Of a stretch of DNA of 22,338 nt, positions 8,129-22,205 are shown one piece after another. The position numbers and the translations under genes are program-made. The notes beneath the pieces are model-generated. The model did no database searches. It was not told the origin of the DNA and saw only the letters and a program-made list of their open reading frames with translations. The stretch lies in the IMG/VR virus record IMGVR_UViG_3300049855_000218, positions 1-22,338 of that record. One strand, written 5' to 3'. The stretch comes from a virus. Each line of letters begins with the position of its first letter. The first letter of the stretch is position 1.

Positions 8129-9560
8129 TGCGTTTCTCCCTCTTTAAAAAATACACTTGGGCATCTTTATCACAGGCAAAATAACGAAGATTATCCATAA
8201 ATTCATCGTTTTTCTTGACTGGTAGCCCTGTTTTTAAATCTTCACGATATTTACCAAACTCTCTAATAGTGTTTATACAATTAGAGGTTACATATAATGT
8301 AGGGTTAATTTCGTCTGTAAATTGTAACATTTCCCTAACAAAGTTTATACCTAGTGTAACATCTTTCACACAATTTGCACAAGAAATTCCGTACTCTAAA
8401 AATTCATCACGCACAGAATTACCTTTACCCATTCTAGTTTTAGCATTTCCTGCGAAGTCTAAAATAGTTTTAGCTATTAGGTGTCCTAACCCATCACAAA
8501 TCATTTTTATTTTTTTAGCTACATCACTAACTAAACCATCAAAAAATAATTCATTAAATTGAATAACCCTACCATCATCAAAACACCCAATAAAAGACAC
8601 TGCAATTGGTTTAACTGGGTGAGGGTCGATAACCCTAAAAATTGCCCTACAATGCTCTTTTATATAAGCGTTATTTATAGGTTGAATAATATGAATGTCC
8701 TTATGAAAATTATAAATAATCCCATGTTTCTTTTTATAATCTCCCTCAAATCTAGCCCTCAATTGGTCGGCTGAACCTGCGCTATTTTTCATCAAAAACT
8801 GTTTAGTCTTATCAGAAACATAAGGGTTATCGAACAACGAAATTTGGTGAACTTTTATATCATACTTTTTCTCATCATCTTCGGCTCTAGGGAGTAGAAC
8901 CTCGTCCATAAATTGGTCTTTGGCAGGGTCTAGGTTGGGGGTAGCAGATATTATAATTAAAGGCACTTCTCCAGAATCGCTAATACGAAACAACAATTCG
9001 TCATAAAAATCTGCGTCTTTAATACAATTTTCATCAACCCAGACAAAGTCTAAACGAGAGCCTTGCAAAGAAGCACGCCCTGCTTTAGCGGAACGCATTA
9101 CAATAGATGAACCATCGTTTAGCCAAATAGTGTCTAAAATATTACGGTCAAATTTTTTCTTCTTAATTTTTTCCTCTGGAATCATAGAAAGTAGTTTGGA
9201 TTGAGAAGCCCCATGTTGGGTAGCCTGTCTAGCATCTTCTACCACTAACATACCATGCACAGGCTTGGTTTTCTTATTCCATTCTGGTTTATAAGGGTGG
9301 GTTTTTGTGAGAAGAAAAACCGTTTCTACGGAGGCGGTAAAAGTTTTACCAGACGAGTTACCTCCAGTAATAATGCGGATTGTTGTATTGTCTTTAAAAA
9401 ATATTTCCTGCTTAGGGAAGAATTTGATTAAAGATAAGGGATTCTTACCAGAAGATTTTATAACTGCTTCTTCCTCCTCCCTAGCTTCCTCCCTTAACCT
9501 AGCAATCGTGGCTTCTACCTTATCCCGATTTTTTAATAATTTGTCAAGACTATTTACCAT
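7983..9560 (-). CDS. terL: Terminase large subunit (ATPase-nuclease)
   Basis: This 525-residue packaging motor has the expected motif order. Walker A is GGNSSGKT at residues 66-73, Walker B is LDFVWVDE at 170-177 with the catalytic Glu, and the coupling motif SAT is at 205-207. A C-terminal RNase H-like nuclease has likely metal ligands Asp312 (VIDPHP) and Asp368 (ILDFAG). The tail is very basic (RARQSRNASLVGRGVGRRR). An ATG at 9560 with AGGA 8 bases upstream is preferred over a TTG one codon earlier. It overlaps the end of the upstream small-terminase-like gene by 11 bases. It translocates DNA into the procapsid and cuts concatemers. The last 146 bases also encode the start of another protein. 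Confidence 0.93.
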   Translation of the reverse strand: MVNSLDKLLKNRDKVEATIARLREEAREEEEAVIKSSGKNPLSLIKFFPKQEIFFKDNTTIRIITGGNSSGKTFTASVETVFLLTKTHPYKPEWNKKTKPVHGMLVVEDARQATQHGASQSKLLSMIPEEKIKKKKFDRNILDTIWLNDGSSIVMRSAKAGRASLQGSRLDFVWVDENCIKDADFYDELLFRISDSGEVPLIIISATPNLDPAKDQFMDEVLLPRAEDDEKKYDIKVHQISLFDNPYVSDKTKQFLMKNSAGSADQLRARFEGDYKKKHGIIYNFHKDIHIIQPINNAYIKEHCRAIFRVIDPHPVKPIAVSFIGCFDDGRVIQFNELFFDGLVSDVAKKIKMICDGLGHLIAKTILDFAGNAKTRMGKGNSVRDEFLEYGISCANCVKDVTLGINFVREMLQFTDEINPTLYVTSNCINTIREFGKYREDLKTGLPVKKNDEFMDNLRYFACDKDAQVYFLKREKRNVRNGQRVINESTKPSPFEGTNSEKLKRIRARQSRNASLVGRGVGRRR

Positions 9561-10101
9561 CAATCATATCCTGTAAATTATCACTAATCCATTTTTTAAC
9601 CTCATGTCGAGGAATACTACTTAACAACTCATCAATATTAGTACCACTCCCACTTTTAGTACCACTCATTTTTATGTTATTTTGTTGTAATTGAAAAAAG
9701 GCTCTGTTAAGGTCATTGGCAGGCTGTAAAAATATCTTATCTAGTAGTTCAACCAAGCGTGTCATGGCTCTTGTATCTTGTCTAACTTTCGCCATTCTTA
9801 ATGCCTCTTTTAAATGGTCTATAATATCATTATTGCTAAAACCATTTTTCTCCGCCAACTCTAAAAAAGCCTCCTGCTTTTGCAACTTAGCCATATCAAT
9901 TTCAGCAGATTTTTTACTAAGTTTGGAGGCTTCGGATAACATACTTTCAAATATTTTAGCCGATTGCATGGCAGGACGAATATCTGGAGAATCAAACTTA
10001 GAAGAAACCATAGACTCTATAACGGCTTCATGTTCTGGTTCTTCTGGTTCTTCCACAATAGGAACTTCGGAATCTTCGTCTAAAATATCTTCATCACTCA
10101 T
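9550..10101 (-). CDS. Probable small terminase subunit
   Basis: This 183-residue protein lies just upstream of the large terminase gene, the usual place of terS. It has an acidic N-terminus (about residues 1-28), a helical centre (about 50-130) and a C-terminus rich in charged residues. No clear helix-turn-helix was identified, and the acidic leader is atypical, so the assignment is positional. In other phages TerS binds the packaging site as a ring and hands DNA to TerL. The start ATG overlaps the stop of the polymerase gene as ATGA, so packaging and replication genes are joined in one transcript. Confidence 0.55.
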   Translation of the reverse strand: MSDEDILDEDSEVPIVEEPEEPEHEAVIESMVSSKFDSPDIRPAMQSAKIFESMLSEASKLSKKSAEIDMAKLQKQEAFLELAEKNGFSNNDIIDHLKEALRMAKVRQDTRAMTRLVELLDKIFLQPANDLNRAFFQLQQNNIKMSGTKSGSGTNIDELLSSIPRHEVKKWISDNLQDMIDGK

Positions 10102-12179
10102 ATTATATGCACCTGTAAATCAATAATATTATCTAAAACATCACAAGCAACTATATCCGCACCTTTTGGTATAAACTCCTCTAAAAACGCCTTTTCCTCT
10201 TTTTCTTTGAAATATTTGGGGTTAATGTCTAAATCTTTTTTAAATCGTATAGCCACTTTACCTAAACGACCATCAACATAGAATGTTAATAAATAATCTG
10301 TAATTTTATCCATTTTCTCCCATACAGTTAATTTTCCATTGCTATCATAAACAGACTCAGCTTCTTTTTCCCAACGAGTCATTAATGCAGGCTCGGCTTT
10401 AATAATCTTTACATCTGGAAGAAATTTACTCATAGCATTAATCATAATTTTACTTAATGCCATTGCTTCTTCATGTGCATTGTCTATTGGGACTTCAAAA
10501 ATAATCTCATCATGTACTACTAATTTTGGGATAGATTTTAAATCCCCAAAAAATGTTGCATTACAAACATCTATAAATGCTTGTTTTACGCCATCACTAG
10601 CTAAACCTTGAAAGAATGTGTTACAAGCCGAACAATAAGCACTGTCGGGAACCATTCTCACCCTATCCGTAAACACTTGCTTACACTCATAAAAAGTACC
10701 AATATCTTTAGTAACAAGTAGCCTTTCCATATATCTATGATAAAACTCCACCTCTGGGTAAGCTAAGAAAAACGCTTCACGAATCTTTTTAGCTTCTTCT
10801 TCCGTAACAATAACACCATAAGAAGTTCTCGCATAATCCACAAATGTTTTGTACATCAAACCACCAGGATACCCGAAATTACCTGCCTTTGACATTTGAC
10901 GATATTGCTTAAAAATTTTATCCTTTAAAGCTAATTGTTGAATAAATTCTTCATACGAACACCCCATAATATTTGAACCAGTAACACAATGTAAATCTTT
11001 ACCTTGATTAATGGCTAGTAACATTTGAGAAACAACACCATACTCTTGAAACATGGTATGGGTTACTTGGGCTAGGGCTAACAACTCTAATTGGGAGTAA
11101 TCAATAGAACAAAAATAATAACCCTCTCTTGGTACGATACACCCACGAATACGCCCATTACGAGGCACATTTTGCAAATTGGGAGAATAGCAACTCATGC
11201 GCCCAGTAGCTTTAAGCATATCTAAACTTGGTTTAATTTCCTCTTTACCCTGCCACGCAAGTAAAAAAGTGTTTACAGAAGTCGAGGCACTGCCAATTTT
11301 TAATAAGGCGTCTATACCCTCATGTTTACCTTCCAAAAAACCTAAACTATCCGCATCACAAGAAATATTCCCCTTATCTGTTGTTGGTACATCTAAGCCC
11401 ATACTTATGTAAAGTTGACTTACAACTTCTTTAATTACGGAAGTGTTCTTTTTTAATGTTAGGTCTTTTTTAGATTTAGGTTCTTTAAAATTTAAGCGTA
11501 CTAAAATCTCGTCTTGTTCTGAAATTAATTTTTGGAGTTCTGATAATTTAGTTTCTAAAAACCCATTATCAACTTTCAAACCCTCTACTTTTGTAGTTAT
11601 TGTACCCAACCAATCACAATAAGATTGAACTCTTACATCTTTAATTTTTTTGACACCTAGTTGTTTTTTAAATACATTTAAACAATAAACTGCGTCCATC
11701 TTAGCATATCTAACCGCCTCAGAATCCCAATTCTCCATAGGCACATCAATAAGTTTGTTATAATTTAAACGCCAAGAATCCTCTGTCTTGTCTTTTGAAA
11801 TATCAATACCTAAATACTTTTCCACACAAAATGCCAAACTAAATTCTTTACCATCAATAGAACCGTCATAAGCTAGGCGTATTAGTTTTTCATTCATTTT
11901 TGTGCAAATTATTTTGCCATCTTTATATTTTTTATTTATTAAGAACATCATTTCTGGAAAGGCTACTGCAAGCACACTAAAATCGAAACTCGCACTGTGC
12001 GCTACAATAGTTATATCATCATCTTTAAGCAAATTTTCTAAAACAGTTAATAGTAAAGGATTGTCATCTTTATATAACTGTGTTTCTTGTCCATCAGAAA
12101 CACTCATACATACTAACTTTGGAATCGGTGACTCCTCCGTTATAAGGAATGTTTCTGTATCTAAGCCTACTAGTTTCAT
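10098..12179 (-). CDS. DNA polymerase, family A, with 3'-5' exonuclease
   Basis: This 693-residue replicative polymerase has both domains. The exonuclease motifs are LDTET (Asp7, Glu9), HSASFD (Asp66) and YAKMD (Tyr158, Asp162), so proofreading residues look intact. Polymerase motif A is IDYSQLELL (Asp360, Glu365), motif B is RQMSKAGNFGYPGG (Arg427, Lys431, Phe435), and motif C is VHDE (Asp557, Glu558). Phe435 sits where E. coli Pol I has Phe762, which favours exclusion of dideoxynucleotides. The tyrosine equivalent to Tyr766 is replaced by Gly439, with a PGG turn. About 90 residues (605-693) extend past the normal end of the family. No 5'-3' exonuclease domain is present. The start has AGGA about 7 bases upstream. 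A 117-base untranslated leader with a hairpin precedes it. Confidence 0.93.
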   Translation of the reverse strand: MKLVGLDTETFLITEESPIPKLVCMSVSDGQETQLYKDDNPLLLTVLENLLKDDDITIVAHSASFDFSVLAVAFPEMMFLINKKYKDGKIICTKMNEKLIRLAYDGSIDGKEFSLAFCVEKYLGIDISKDKTEDSWRLNYNKLIDVPMENWDSEAVRYAKMDAVYCLNVFKKQLGVKKIKDVRVQSYCDWLGTITTKVEGLKVDNGFLETKLSELQKLISEQDEILVRLNFKEPKSKKDLTLKKNTSVIKEVVSQLYISMGLDVPTTDKGNISCDADSLGFLEGKHEGIDALLKIGSASTSVNTFLLAWQGKEEIKPSLDMLKATGRMSCYSPNLQNVPRNGRIRGCIVPREGYYFCSIDYSQLELLALAQVTHTMFQEYGVVSQMLLAINQGKDLHCVTGSNIMGCSYEEFIQQLALKDKIFKQYRQMSKAGNFGYPGGLMYKTFVDYARTSYGVIVTEEEAKKIREAFFLAYPEVEFYHRYMERLLVTKDIGTFYECKQVFTDRVRMVPDSAYCSACNTFFQGLASDGVKQAFIDVCNATFFGDLKSIPKLVVHDEIIFEVPIDNAHEEAMALSKIMINAMSKFLPDVKIIKAEPALMTRWEKEAESVYDSNGKLTVWEKMDKITDYLLTFYVDGRLGKVAIRFKKDLDINPKYFKEKEEKAFLEEFIPKGADIVACDVLDNIIDLQVHII

Positions 12180-18422: not shown

Positions 18423-18450
18423 ATTCTACACTACTATTATGTTTTGTCTA
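18423..18450 (-). promoter_or_regulatory. Candidate sigma70 promoter, leftward
   Basis: On the minus strand TAGACA (-35, 18450-18445) is separated by 16 bases from TAGAAT (-10, 18428-18423). Each box matches the consensus in 5 of 6 positions. Transcription would begin near 18416, about 30 bases before the next start codon at 18386. It overlaps the stop codon of the primase gene, in the only real gap between 20.7 and 12.3 kb. Confidence 0.5.
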
Positions 18451-20721
18451 GTCTTTCTCCACTTCCAAGTTATTAATTTCTTCATCTAAACCAAAATCTT
18501 TTAAAATTTCTAAAACAGTTGTCTTAGAAACACGCCACCTTGACGCACCTGTCGAATTTGTATCCCTTCTAAAAACTCCCTTATGTTCGCGAATAGGCTT
18601 TTTCAAAATACTCTCCATTTCTTGCACCGAAAGCCTTTTATTAATAATTCTATTCTTCAATAAATCTTCAAAAAATGCGTCAACAAAAACAACACACTCT
18701 TTATTTTCTTGTTTTGTTACATTGCAAGATTTATGATAAAAATATTCTTGAATAACCCTGTGTTCCCTATTGAAAGTGAAGGATTTTTTATCTGTATTAG
18801 CCGTTTTAATAGGAGACAAAGCCAAAATATCTGTACTTCTTTTCTTAAAATTAAACGCTTGCGGATTTTCTCTAACATATTTGCAATGTTCCCTAAAAGC
18901 CGAACTTAACCAACTACTTGTAACAGAAACCCCACCAATTTTTTCCAAATAATCTACATTGTTTTGAGTAAATTGAATTGGTTGAATCCTTCTAAGTAAC
19001 GCCCCATTATCCGAACTACTAAAAGCAGGGAAAGTTAAGAAGTCGTCATTAACTGCCGTAAAAATTCTTGAATACCCTTTAACATACATAGCCGTTTTAT
19101 ATTTTTGGCGTATAGAAACCATGTTAGAAGTAACAATATTCTTAATTTCGTCTGGTCGATTAGGTATTTTTTCGTCAAAAAGAATGATTGGGTTAGTTCC
19201 TGCGGTGTCTTTAAACCCCCCTTTCTCGTCAATATAATCTTCAATAGGGGAAGTATTCCATATAGAAGCCACTAATTTACAAAGTAGGGTCTTTCCTGCA
19301 TTACTTACACCATAACAATGGATAATAGGAAGGGCAACAGACAAGTCTGTTACATAATAGATGTACTCATAAAGCCAATCCGTTGGTATATTTAGTTGAG
19401 ACAACCAATTATGAATGTCTTGGTGGAAGGTGGCTTTACAAGGAACTTTGTAATGGTTTGCCGTAAGCAAGGTATTACTAGATTTTTCATAGAATCTACC
19501 ATATTTATCAGCGCCAAGTAAGTAACAAACCTTATCGGGTTGTTTTATATGTCTAGCCATGAAGTCTGAAATATCTTCTGTATAACGAAACCGCTCATCT
19601 TCTGCGTCCCAGAATTGAATTTCATTCTTTTTTAAAGCAAAAATGTCGGCATCTGTTATTTTTACCTTAGACCTAGCCACAATTGGGGTGTAAAGGTCTG
19701 CGTATAAATGCACAATGTCGTCCGATTCTGTATTGTTAAGGGCTAGATAGTAATTTCCTTTTTCTTCCCCCTTCACCATTTTAATAATTTCTGGATTTAT
19801 TTTTGGCAAGGGGCAACCTACTTCTTTGGCATAGAAATAAATGGTAGCTATTGAATAGCTGTTTTGTGTGTGATTCCAACAGTAATCAAACTTTTTTATT
19901 AGTTCCTCTTGACTTGCACACTTATCCTTATCTAGTTTTGAAAAAGAAATAAAATATTCTAGGCACGCAGATTTTGAAATGTTGTGAGCCTTCAAAGACA
20001 CGCAAGCAAAACAAACCGCAATCCATTTTTGGTGTGTGGGAGTAATAGAAAGATTCTTTTCTTTTAGGTACTGTAAAATTTTTTGTAATTTAAGTGCAAC
20101 AATCTCTCCAGACTCTAAGAAAAAAGATTCACTATTATCAGATTCTTGGGAACTCTCCAAGTTGTCCAAGTCGTCTACAACTTCTACACTAGTTGAAACA
20201 TATAAAGGGTTTCCTTCATTAAGAAAAAATGTTTCTAGTTTAGAACTGTTAGGAATATAAAAAAGGCGTGATGGGTCATTACAAGCAGGGTCGTAAGGTA
20301 CTTTTCCATCAAAAAGGTGTTTGTAAGTTTGTTTAAACTGTGTTGTAGAAGTAATAGGGGTGGAGGTTGTGGTTATAATCCGATACTTAGGTTGCTCTTG
20401 TGTAGAACTTGGAGTCTCATAAAGAATAAACCCAATATTCCCTTCTGTAAGTTTTGTAAGAAACTCTGTCGGGTCGCCTTCGTCCACATCTAAAACAAGA
20501 AGTTGTGTAGAAACGAAATCCTCTGTTGTTCTTCGGTCACCTTTAAAAATGGAAGGGATAAAACGAGATAGTTTATTTTTGGGGGTGTTAGGTAACTGAA
20601 TACTACATTGGTATCGTAAAAACTCGTACACTCCTTCAAGCCCTTCTACCTCTATTGTTTCCCCAATAGCCCCTAAATCCCTATTTGCAGGGGTAAAGTT
20701 AAATTTGATTGTTTTCGTCAT
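18448..20721 (-). CDS. Primase-helicase: AEP-like primase fused to superfamily 3 helicase
   Basis: This 757-residue replication initiator-type protein has an N-terminal segment like an archaeo-eukaryotic-type primase: LLVLDVDEGDP (74-84, acidic pair Asp78/Asp80), YRIITTTSTPI (113-123), and DPSRLFYIPN (149-158). A central region (about 205-305) resembles the PriCT/primase C-terminal helical domain. The C-terminal SF3 helicase has Walker A GVSNAGKT (471-478), Walker B IILFDE (512-517), motif C IFTAVND (553-559) and a candidate arginine finger at 577/578. Together they would synthesise primers and unwind the fork as a hexamer. A strong SD (GGGGAGG, 6 bases) precedes the ATG, and the gene overlaps the HTH-like gene by 23 bases. 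The primase assignment is less certain than the helicase. Confidence 0.85.
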   Translation of the reverse strand: MTKTIKFNFTPANRDLGAIGETIEVEGLEGVYEFLRYQCSIQLPNTPKNKLSRFIPSIFKGDRRTTEDFVSTQLLVLDVDEGDPTEFLTKLTEGNIGFILYETPSSTQEQPKYRIITTTSTPITSTTQFKQTYKHLFDGKVPYDPACNDPSRLFYIPNSSKLETFFLNEGNPLYVSTSVEVVDDLDNLESSQESDNSESFFLESGEIVALKLQKILQYLKEKNLSITPTHQKWIAVCFACVSLKAHNISKSACLEYFISFSKLDKDKCASQEELIKKFDYCWNHTQNSYSIATIYFYAKEVGCPLPKINPEIIKMVKGEEKGNYYLALNNTESDDIVHLYADLYTPIVARSKVKITDADIFALKKNEIQFWDAEDERFRYTEDISDFMARHIKQPDKVCYLLGADKYGRFYEKSSNTLLTANHYKVPCKATFHQDIHNWLSQLNIPTDWLYEYIYYVTDLSVALPIIHCYGVSNAGKTLLCKLVASIWNTSPIEDYIDEKGGFKDTAGTNPIILFDEKIPNRPDEIKNIVTSNMVSIRQKYKTAMYVKGYSRIFTAVNDDFLTFPAFSSSDNGALLRRIQPIQFTQNNVDYLEKIGGVSVTSSWLSSAFREHCKYVRENPQAFNFKKRSTDILALSPIKTANTDKKSFTFNREHRVIQEYFYHKSCNVTKQENKECVVFVDAFFEDLLKNRIINKRLSVQEMESILKKPIREHKGVFRRDTNSTGASRWRVSKTTVLEILKDFGLDEEINNLEVEKD

Positions 20722-20926
20722 TAGGAACCTCCCCTCTGAATATTAACTTTTTATAATCTTCTTCTAAAAGATAGGGGGTGTTGTCCGCTAATTTTCGAGT
20801 TGTTACATTAGCCTTTTTTAAGTAATAATACACCCGACTCAAACTCACATTTCCTAGTAGAATTTGAACATCTTGGAGGCTCAAAATATTCGGGTTTTCT
20901 TTTTTCGCCTGTTCCATTAAACTCAT
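20699..20926 (-). CDS. Small winged-helix-turn-helix-like DNA-binding protein
   Basis: This 75-residue protein resembles MerR/excisionase-type wHTH domains: LSLQDVQILLG (16-26) as helix one, VSLSRVYYYLKKANVTTRKL (27-46) as turn plus recognition helix, and PYLLEEDYKKL (51-61) as the wing and following helix. It is the first gene downstream of the TTGACACC array and overlaps the primase gene by 23 bases. It has a good SD (AAAGGAG, 8 bases). It might bind the repeats to control the promoter or load the helicase; that is an inference from location. Confidence 0.65.
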   Translation of the reverse strand: MSLMEQAKKENPNILSLQDVQILLGNVSLSRVYYYLKKANVTTRKLADNTPYLLEEDYKKLIFRGEVPNDENNQI

Positions 20927-20960
20927 AAAATAAACTCCTTTTTCTGAATAAGTCGAGCAT

Positions 20961-20988
20961 AGTTTAAGTATAAGTTATAATAAGTCAA
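20961..20988 (-). promoter_or_regulatory. Weak candidate promoter directly before the HTH-like gene
   Basis: On the minus strand TTGACT (20988-20983) is 16 bases from TAAACT (20966-20961), with a TATAA-containing AT-rich spacer. The -35 box is good and the -10 box matches 4 of 6. Transcription would begin near 20954, giving a short leader with the SD for the gene starting at 20926. Confidence 0.35.
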
Positions 20989-21179
20989 GAATAATTTCAA
21001 GCAAAAATGCCGTTTTTCGTGTCAAAGGGGGTTGACACCATACACGAAAAAACTTGACACCATAGGTTTTAAAATGAATTTTGGGTGTTTTTTAAGGTTT
21101 TTAGGTGTCAAGGTGTCAAAATTATTTTTTCGTTTGACACCGTTTTTGACACCTCAGAAATTTTTATAAGTGGTTGAAA

Positions 21180-21208
21180 ATAATAGAATTAACTACTAAG
21201 AGTGTCAA
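21180..21208 (-). promoter_or_regulatory. Strong candidate sigma70 promoter whose -35 box is an array repeat
   Basis: On the minus strand TTGACA (21208-21203) is exactly 17 bases from TATTAT (21185-21180), a consensus -35 and a 5 of 6 -10. Transcription would start near 21173 and read left into the HTH-like and primase-helicase genes. The -35 lies within the element at 21201-21208, and the next elements (21146-21153 and 21134-21141) fall 20-40 bases downstream of the start. Confidence 0.6.
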
Positions 21209-21230
21209 GGTGTGTTCTTTTTTCTTACCC

Positions 21231-21263
21231 TTATAGTATAATAATAATAATAATATATATATA
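21231..21263. other. 33-base A+T tract, possible DNA unwinding element
   Basis: All but one of the 33 bases are A or T, including ATA and AT dinucleotide runs. It lies between two groups of TTGACACC elements and beside the small inverted repeat GGGGTTTACCCC (21264-21275). An easily melted segment next to iterons is the usual layout of a replication origin; it could also simply be spacer. Confidence 0.5.
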
Positions 21264-21319
21264 GGGGTTTACCCCCCTTGACACAGACACCTTGACACCT
21301 ATTCTAGTTGTAAACTATT

Positions 21320-21580
21320 TTACTCTAAAATATCTTTTTTAATTTTCTTATCTAAATCCTTCTTTTCTTGGGGCTTCAAATCGCTCGTCCAAATAATACT
21401 TTTTTCAGTGATTAGGTTTAGATGTTTGCAATGTTTACAATACACATTGGGAAGGCATACAGGCTCATTAGAAACACAATCCAGTACCATCATCTGTTCT
21501 GGTCGCTTATTTATAGGATTGTTTTTCAGTATTGGCTTTTTGCATTTCTCACATTGAATGATGTACTTTTCCTTTGACAT
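21320..21580 (-). CDS. Small zinc-ribbon protein
   Basis: This 86-residue protein has CxxC at 10-13 and CxHC-type CKHC at 48-51, with extra Cys35 and Cys42, consistent with a zinc ribbon; the C-terminus is Lys-rich (about 70-84). The ATG at 21580 has a good SD (AGGAG, 8 bases). It is the first well-supported gene at the right end and reads left toward the repeat array. It could be an early regulator or a host-takeover protein. Family unknown. Confidence 0.65.
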   Translation of the reverse strand: MSKEKYIIQCEKCKKPILKNNPINKRPEQMMVLDCVSNEPVCLPNVYCKHCKHLNLITEKSIIWTSDLKPQEKKDLDKKIKKDILE

Positions 21581-21764
21581 GATAGTTTACTCCTGTAAAA
21601 CTGGTAAGACAAAACGCCCCCATACCCCCTTGATATAAAGGCAGGGTCATTATACCCTCATAGGGGGTGTTGTCCAAAAATTCAATTTCAATATATGGGT
21701 TATGCTTTGTAAAATATAAAATATAATATTTGTAAGATGACCATTGTACCCCATCTCTTATCAA
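21549..21764 (-). CDS. Doubtful small ORF
   Basis: This would be a 71-residue protein starting with TTG at 21764, with only a weak AGGG upstream, overlapping the zinc-ribbon gene by 32 bases. It has no recognised domain. The middle of the ORF is occupied by a set of inverted repeats (21608-21674), so this stretch may be a leader of the following gene rather than a coding sequence. Kept because the frame is open and leftward like its neighbours. Confidence 0.25.
   Translation of the reverse strand: MIRDGVQWSSYKYYILYFTKHNPYIEIEFLDNTPYEGIMTLPLYQGGMGAFCLTSFTGVNYHVKGKVHHSM
21608..21674. promoter_or_regulatory. Nested inverted repeats upstream of the zinc-ribbon gene
   Basis: GACAA (21608-21612) pairs with TTGTC (21670-21674). 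ACCCCC (21624-21629) or an alternative CCCCC run (21617-21621) pairs with the G5 run at 21663-21667. An inner hairpin has AGGGT (21643-21647) and ACCCT (21654-21658) around a 6-base loop. The competing C runs would allow two exclusive folds. In a leftward transcript this would lie 28-94 bases before the gene start at 21580. Confidence 0.35.
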
Positions 21765-22091
21765 CTATTACCCTGAATTACCCTGCCACCCCTATAAAAT
21801 CCCTAGACTTTTGCCTTGACAATCTCCAAGATAAGTTACTTGTACATTAAACAAACACAATTAACAATGGTGGATTGCAGGCGTATACAAGAGCAAGGCA
21901 AGGGAAATGTTAGGGGAATTAGGTTAGTGTGTGGGTTTGGTCTTTTGGTACTAGGAATTGCCCCAAGAAAGTTTGGGGGTCGTTGGGGAAATGAAATTTG
22001 CAAATAGTAAATGAAACTAATTGGTTGTAAATTGATGACCGATTCAAACCCTATTGTGTTTGCGCCCAAAAGCTAGTTAAAACAAACTATG

Positions 22092-22179
22092 TAATTATGC
22101 ACTAGCAATGCATATTTACATTTAATTATGCACTAGCAATGCATATTTACATTTAAATATGCACTAGTAATGCAGATTT
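22092..22179. repeat. 31-bp tandem repeats, 2.8 copies, each with a dyad
   Basis: Units start at 22092, 22123 and 22154. The first two are identical over 31 bases, and the third is diverged and truncated near 22179. Each has the core ATGCACTAGCAATGCAT or a variant, in which ATGCA and TGCAT form inverted arms around seven bases; the third unit has TAGTAA in the centre and TGCAG on the right. A 31-base period is close to three helical turns, so protein dimers bound to the units would lie on one face of the DNA. Confidence 0.85.
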
Positions 22180-22205
22180 GATAAAGCAAATGGTACTAGA
22201 CAACT

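Follow-up and report, generated by a model that had tools for sequence, protein, structure and literature searches.

The non-coding segment at 21018-21299 of the viral sequence analysed here is probably the replication origin of a phage, built in the style of the origins of P4 and the SaPIs. We infer this function from direct observations: an array of sites, the statistics of that array, the genes around it, and similar arrays that accompany replication genes elsewhere. The window is an entire linear IMG/VR virus record of 22,338 bases. It is a fragment, and our octamer counts cover these 22.3 kb, not a complete genome. Three elements of a P4/SaPI-type origin are present: several clustered copies of a short non-palindromic word in non-coding DNA, an A/T run within the cluster, and a linked SF3-type helicase with a primase. 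What is new is the word, an octamer of the phage's own within this known class. The segment is a concrete origin candidate for a podovirus-like phage that is without close database relatives.

All recognisable phage genes of the record lie on the minus strand. The left end holds the tail-side genes, capsid, portal and terminase; a family A polymerase, an SF2 helicase, a PD-(D/E)XK nuclease and, last, the primase-helicase follow (Table 1). Both PriCT_2 and DUF5906 of the primase-helicase exceed Pfam gathering scores and PHROG matches are to primase/helicase; its AEP part gives weak matches. The AlphaFold model of the neighbouring 75-aa protein (pLDDT 83) has SoxR, pSK1 Par, RacA, BldC and phage excisionases as its top Foldseek matches (E 0.008-0.05). 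The preliminary description, made from the sequence alone, had placed an HTH-like protein and a primase-SF3 helicase nearest to the array, and both identifications are confirmed. A gap of 393 bases separates the HTH gene from that of an 86-aa CxxC protein with no significant family in Pfam or PHROG. Rfam and tRNA scans of the sequence returned no match. Close relatives were found neither by single-protein scans of viral contigs (primase, polymerase, portal) nor by tblastn of the primase in phages. A polymerase profile search reached three remote loci, and the nearest polymerase relative, ctsHD2, is without the octamer array.

Table 1. Features of the window (positions in bases) and loci elsewhere that carry arrays of the same octamer
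Feature	Position or locus	Strand	Remark
Family A DNA polymerase with 3'-5' exonuclease	10098..12179	-	operon-like run shared with the primase-helicase
Primase-helicase: AEP-like N-terminus, PriCT_2, DUF5906 (SF3-type) helicase	18448..20721	-	Pfam, PHROG; favoured initiator
75-aa winged-HTH protein, MerR/excisionase/AlpA-like fold	20699..20926	-	first gene downstream of the array
Array: ten TTGACAC heptamers, including seven exact TTGACACC	21018..21299	both orientations	candidate initiator-binding region
Facing pairs: tandem GGTGTCAAGGTGTCAA against TTGACACC-N4-TTGACACC	21102..21154		hairpin-capable
Promoter-like site TTGACA-N17-TATTAT, 11/12 matches	21180..21208	-	consensus match only
A/T tract, 27 pure A/T bases	21237..21263		no longer pure A/T run in the record; separates copy groups and may serve as the DNA-unwinding element
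86-aa CxxC/Zn-ribbon-like protein	21320..21580	-	bounds the other side of the gap
phrog_2597 primase-helicases (PriCT_2 + AAA_25) with TTGACACC arrays	L007/L010, L012, L014, L019, L021, L022, L035, L067, L106, L116, L118, L129, L140		
DUF5906 SF3 proteins with TTGACACC arrays	L073, L074, L110		L110 by homology
VapE-type proteins with TTGACACC arrays	L097, L150/L053		
PriCT_2 protein of a nanohaloarchaeon with TTGACACC array	L126		array upstream, as in the window
DnaC-like loader with TTGACACC array	L032		
Lambda-O-like initiators with TTGACACC array	L043, L046, L052, L066, L070, L071, L080, L101		array in or beside the gene

How unusual is the array? Seven exact copies of TTGACACC were counted in it, in both orientations (21032+, 21054+, 21104-, 21112-, 21134+, 21146+ and 21292+), as had been described. 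The 'about five' near copies proved to be three with one mismatch: 21018- (TTGACACG), 21201- (TTGACACT) and 21278+ (TTGACACA). All three keep the heptamer TTGACAC, so that ten heptamers fall within 282 bases, in good agreement with the intergenic segment of about 280 bases first reported. The octamer is not frequent elsewhere: the sole copy outside the array lies at 11650+, within polA. The record total of eight compares with 0.62 expected, and none of 100 shuffles reached eight. When all octamers were scanned blind, the array was the densest cluster of the record (seven within 300 bases, against four for the next unrelated best), and in 60 whole-record Markov simulations the maximum cluster never exceeded four. 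The heptamer tells the same story in the 393-base gap, where ten copies stand out: 2000 simulations averaged 2.8 and never gave more than 6.

The sites are spaced irregularly, at distances of 8 to 146. Rep-type plasmid iterons are direct repeats of 17-22 bp at regular spacing. The earlier reading of the array as an iteron origin survives as an origin layout, of the P4 kind; the sites themselves are too short, irregular and bidirectional for the iteron pattern. We rejected a Rep_3-type iteron plasmid origin on the spacing and the mixed orientation of the sites, and on DnaA boxes: the window has no exact box (TTATNCACA), and one-mismatch boxes are not in excess, with none inside the array. An A+T tract does lie between the copy groups, at 27 bases of pure A/T; the 33 bases originally given include one G. 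The segment folds strongly as a single strand (z -4.7) because octamer copies face each other. With the folding so accounted for, a pRN1-like stem-loop origin (PMC4234260) is not favoured. Cumulative GC skew gives no information on the origin, since the record stops at 22.3 kb and nearly all its genes are on one strand. Of the observations that would have contradicted the preliminary description, none was made.

How might such an origin fire? We propose that a phage initiator would bind the ten TTGACAC(C) sites cooperatively and that the adjoining 27-base A/T tract would then open. The SF3-type primase-helicase would be loaded there and would supply primers to the family A polymerase that the phage encodes. 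It may itself read the octamer, through a C-terminal DNA-binding domain like those of P4 alpha and SaPI Rep. We regard this neighbouring enzyme as the most likely reader of the sites and put its chances at about even. Its C-terminus yields an unreliable model (single-sequence AlphaFold, pLDDT 38) and shows no profile similarity to the C-termini of P4 alpha or phrog_2597. Next in line as reader is the 75-aa HTH protein, which is perhaps a regulator of the operon.

Could the array be a transcriptional operator instead, through which the 75-aa HTH protein, or some other regulator of the phage, controls the leftward replication operon? It lies upstream of that operon, and the adjacent protein has a MerR/excisionase-like fold. 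A strong promoter-like site in the gap, with 11 of 12 consensus matches, has a near-copy of the octamer as its -35 box and is directed into the operon. Ten sites across 282 bases plus an A/T tract, however, exceed what an operator typically needs. Moreover, TTGACACC arrays elsewhere are mostly 3' of replication genes or inside them, where an operator for that gene would make no sense. We consider a purely regulatory array unlikely. One array can serve as origin and operator at once, as autoregulated iteron replicons show. The -35 box and the direction of the promoter-like site suggest that origin and replication-operon promoter may overlap.

It is quite unlikely that the origin lies elsewhere and the octamer array is an accessory. 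One alternative place is 22089-22181, where three 31-bp tandem repeats (ATGTAATTATGCACTAGCAATGCATATTTAC), each unit with a palindromic core, make up the best tandem array of the record. The right end in which they lie is largely non-coding. Against them, the copies number only three, are further from the primase-helicase and are unmatched to known origins in this analysis. They could be an operator, a partition element or a second origin element. Two further features were noted at this end of the record. A terminator-like hairpin of the minus strand (21615-21643) separates the small genes from the repeats at the right end. A stretch AGGGGGTGTTGTCC occurs twice, at about 20775-20789 in the HTH gene and at about 21664-21678 in what may be a small ORF (21549-21764), and encodes DNTPY in both.

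The array is very unlikely to be a partition centromere or to consist of integrase arm-type sites. The HTH model does resemble the DNA-binding domain of pSK1 Par and excisionases, and one TTGACACC cluster in another sequence (L123) adjoins an integrase gene. Within the 22 kb examined, however, no ParA-like or integrase gene was recognised, the 75-aa protein is without a coiled-coil, and the neighbours are replication genes. Finally, could the repeats serve chiefly as -35 boxes for several sigma-70 promoters? TTGACA is the -35 consensus, and -10-like partners stand 16-18 bases from three of the copies. The remaining seven lack such a partner at the threshold used, the unit that is conserved is longer than a hexamer (TTGACAC, mostly CC), copies face both ways and 12 promoters were found against 7.9 expected in shuffles. 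We regard this reading as most improbable.

The origin reading gains from arrays at or near replication genes in many unrelated phages; the preliminary description had suggested looking for the array in related phages. Sequence collections were scanned for GGTGTCAAGGTGTCAA, or for three octamers within 84 bases; the loci are thus selected by motif and biased. The scans returned many viral loci and 68 genome stretches. Many triples on one strand are tandem repeats within coding sequence, their spacings multiples of three. Among those examined, the irregular or 22-base-spaced TTGACACC clusters lie mostly at replication genes (Table 1), and in eight such records, of 12 to 45 kb, the octamer is nearly restricted to that single array. 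Against the origin reading, clusters also occur outside replication: in coding tandem repeats, beside the integrase at L123, in Micromonospora and other actinobacterial genomes, and in Planctomycetota. The Micromonospora, Planctomycetota and L123 clusters were left out of the replication comparison. Searching with blastn for the arrays in phages gave nothing useful, and a text search for the octamer found no relevant mention among the papers listed.

Some genome loci show patterns of their own. Pairs of TTGACACC with a third, inverted copy recur in Actinobacteria and Chloroflexi (L136, L139, L154, L161, L163, L172 and others), at spacings of 14 and 27-29, or of 10 and 27; these may mark a conserved regulator site that has nothing to do with phage origins. 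Thermoactinomyces daqus has octamer clusters of near-equal spacing in two places of one genome (L138 and L150), one adjoining a VapE gene and the other without a replication gene nearby.

Does a shared octamer point to common descent? A control octamer of equal composition, TTCAGCAC, forms the same mixed-orientation pattern in 3 viral stretches, against 16 for TTGACACC. One control array, of ten TTCAGCAC copies at L204 (485-680), lies within the gene of an HTH_36 replication-like protein and looks like a genuine origin found with an arbitrary octamer. Another lies about 1 kb from a Prim-Pol gene.

The primase-helicases of phrog_2597 allow a closer look. Those of their phages that carry TTGACACC arrays (L106, L116, L118, L014, L007 and others) resemble the window in having the same octamer, in mixed orientation and almost nowhere else in the record, with 4-15 copies within about 100-265 bases. 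They differ in having an AAA_25 (RecA-like) helicase where the window has SF3, and in placing the array at the 3' end of the gene. As a check on bias, ten phrog_2597 phages were taken by protein alone and their 5-kb loci scanned for heptamer clusters. None of the ten has a TTGACACC array. In eight, the densest or equal best cluster, of another motif, lies directly after the primase; the position of the array is therefore conserved while the word changes. In the gap after the primase, three Streptococcus phages have 7 to 11 copies of AGGGACA, a fourth has 7 copies of AAGGACA and EFC-1 has 6 of AATAGCT; Vegas, Javan377 and Javan131 have weaker clusters there, that of Javan131 not significant. 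Streptococcus phages Javan311, Javan68, Javan47 and Javan273 (L192, L195, L196, L198) carry 7-11 AGGGACA/AAGGACA copies after a repA-type primase-helicase gene, and these dense arrays are probably origins unannotated in their records.

The C-terminal HTH is the variable part of phrog_2597, with 38% identity among the TTGACACC phages against 69% in the rest of the protein. Its second helix reads N-S/T/A-I/V-K in the TTGACACC phages, and EKT-I/V-RRW with a five-residue insertion in the AGGGACA phages. Judged from sequence, this divergence fits a C-terminal reader, as in SaPI Rep, Cch2 and P4 alpha, and is confounded by ancestry.

We therefore rejected the view that sharing the octamer proves common origin: the loci were selected by motif, the control octamer also sits at replication loci, and the phrog_2597 phages picked by protein have words of their own. 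Because the control marks replication loci too, and position is kept while the word changes, octamer arrays at phage origins are general; sharing TTGACACC with the window is suggestive at most. It is unlikely that TTGACACC is a recurrent origin word across phages, and perhaps archaeal elements, held in common through a shared host factor or constraint rather than ancestry. If the sharing is more than coincidence, one would have to ask why unrelated initiators (SF3 DUF5906, VapE, AAA_25 primase-helicases and lambda-O-like proteins) settled on one word.

Known origins provide a further control. In phage P4 the blind octamer scan recovers the annotated type 1 repeat GGTGAACA, whose six copies, in both orientations, occupy 9310-9413, plus the crr cluster. 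In the right part of Streptococcus phage Sfi21 it recovers the annotated 302-bp origin, with a score of only 4, tied with another site. A simple scan for clustered octamers that finds annotated origins offers origin annotation for uncultivated phages, and it also flags the gap adjoining the primase-helicase genes in most phages of one family (phrog_2597).

Like the window array, the Sfi21 origin is non-coding and beside a primase gene, with short repeats in both orientations flanking an A/T tract; unlike it, the repeat word is another and the origin lies downstream of the gene. The staphylococcal SaPI and SCCmec Cch2 origins also have short repeats beside a helicase gene. SaPI Rep and Cch2 bind these iterons, which lie directly downstream of rep, through the helicase's C-terminal domain (PMC7581432), whereas the window array is upstream with one small gene between. 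P4 alpha likewise binds its repeats through a winged-helix domain (PMC4234260). P4 differs from the window in its word (GGTGAACA against GGTGTCAA, 5 of 8 identical) and in its primase, which is Toprim-type where the window's is AEP-like with PriCT_2; the two C-termini have no detectable similarity. P4 also requires its second cluster, crr, whereas the record fragment, with one further copy at 11650, shows no second cluster of TTGACACC. In layout the two agree closely. Both have 8-bp non-palindromic sites in both orientations at irregular spacing (six in about 104 bases in P4), with an A/T-rich stretch separating the groups. In both, the array stands upstream of a leftward operon in which a small excisionase-type HTH gene comes first and a primase-helicase lies within.
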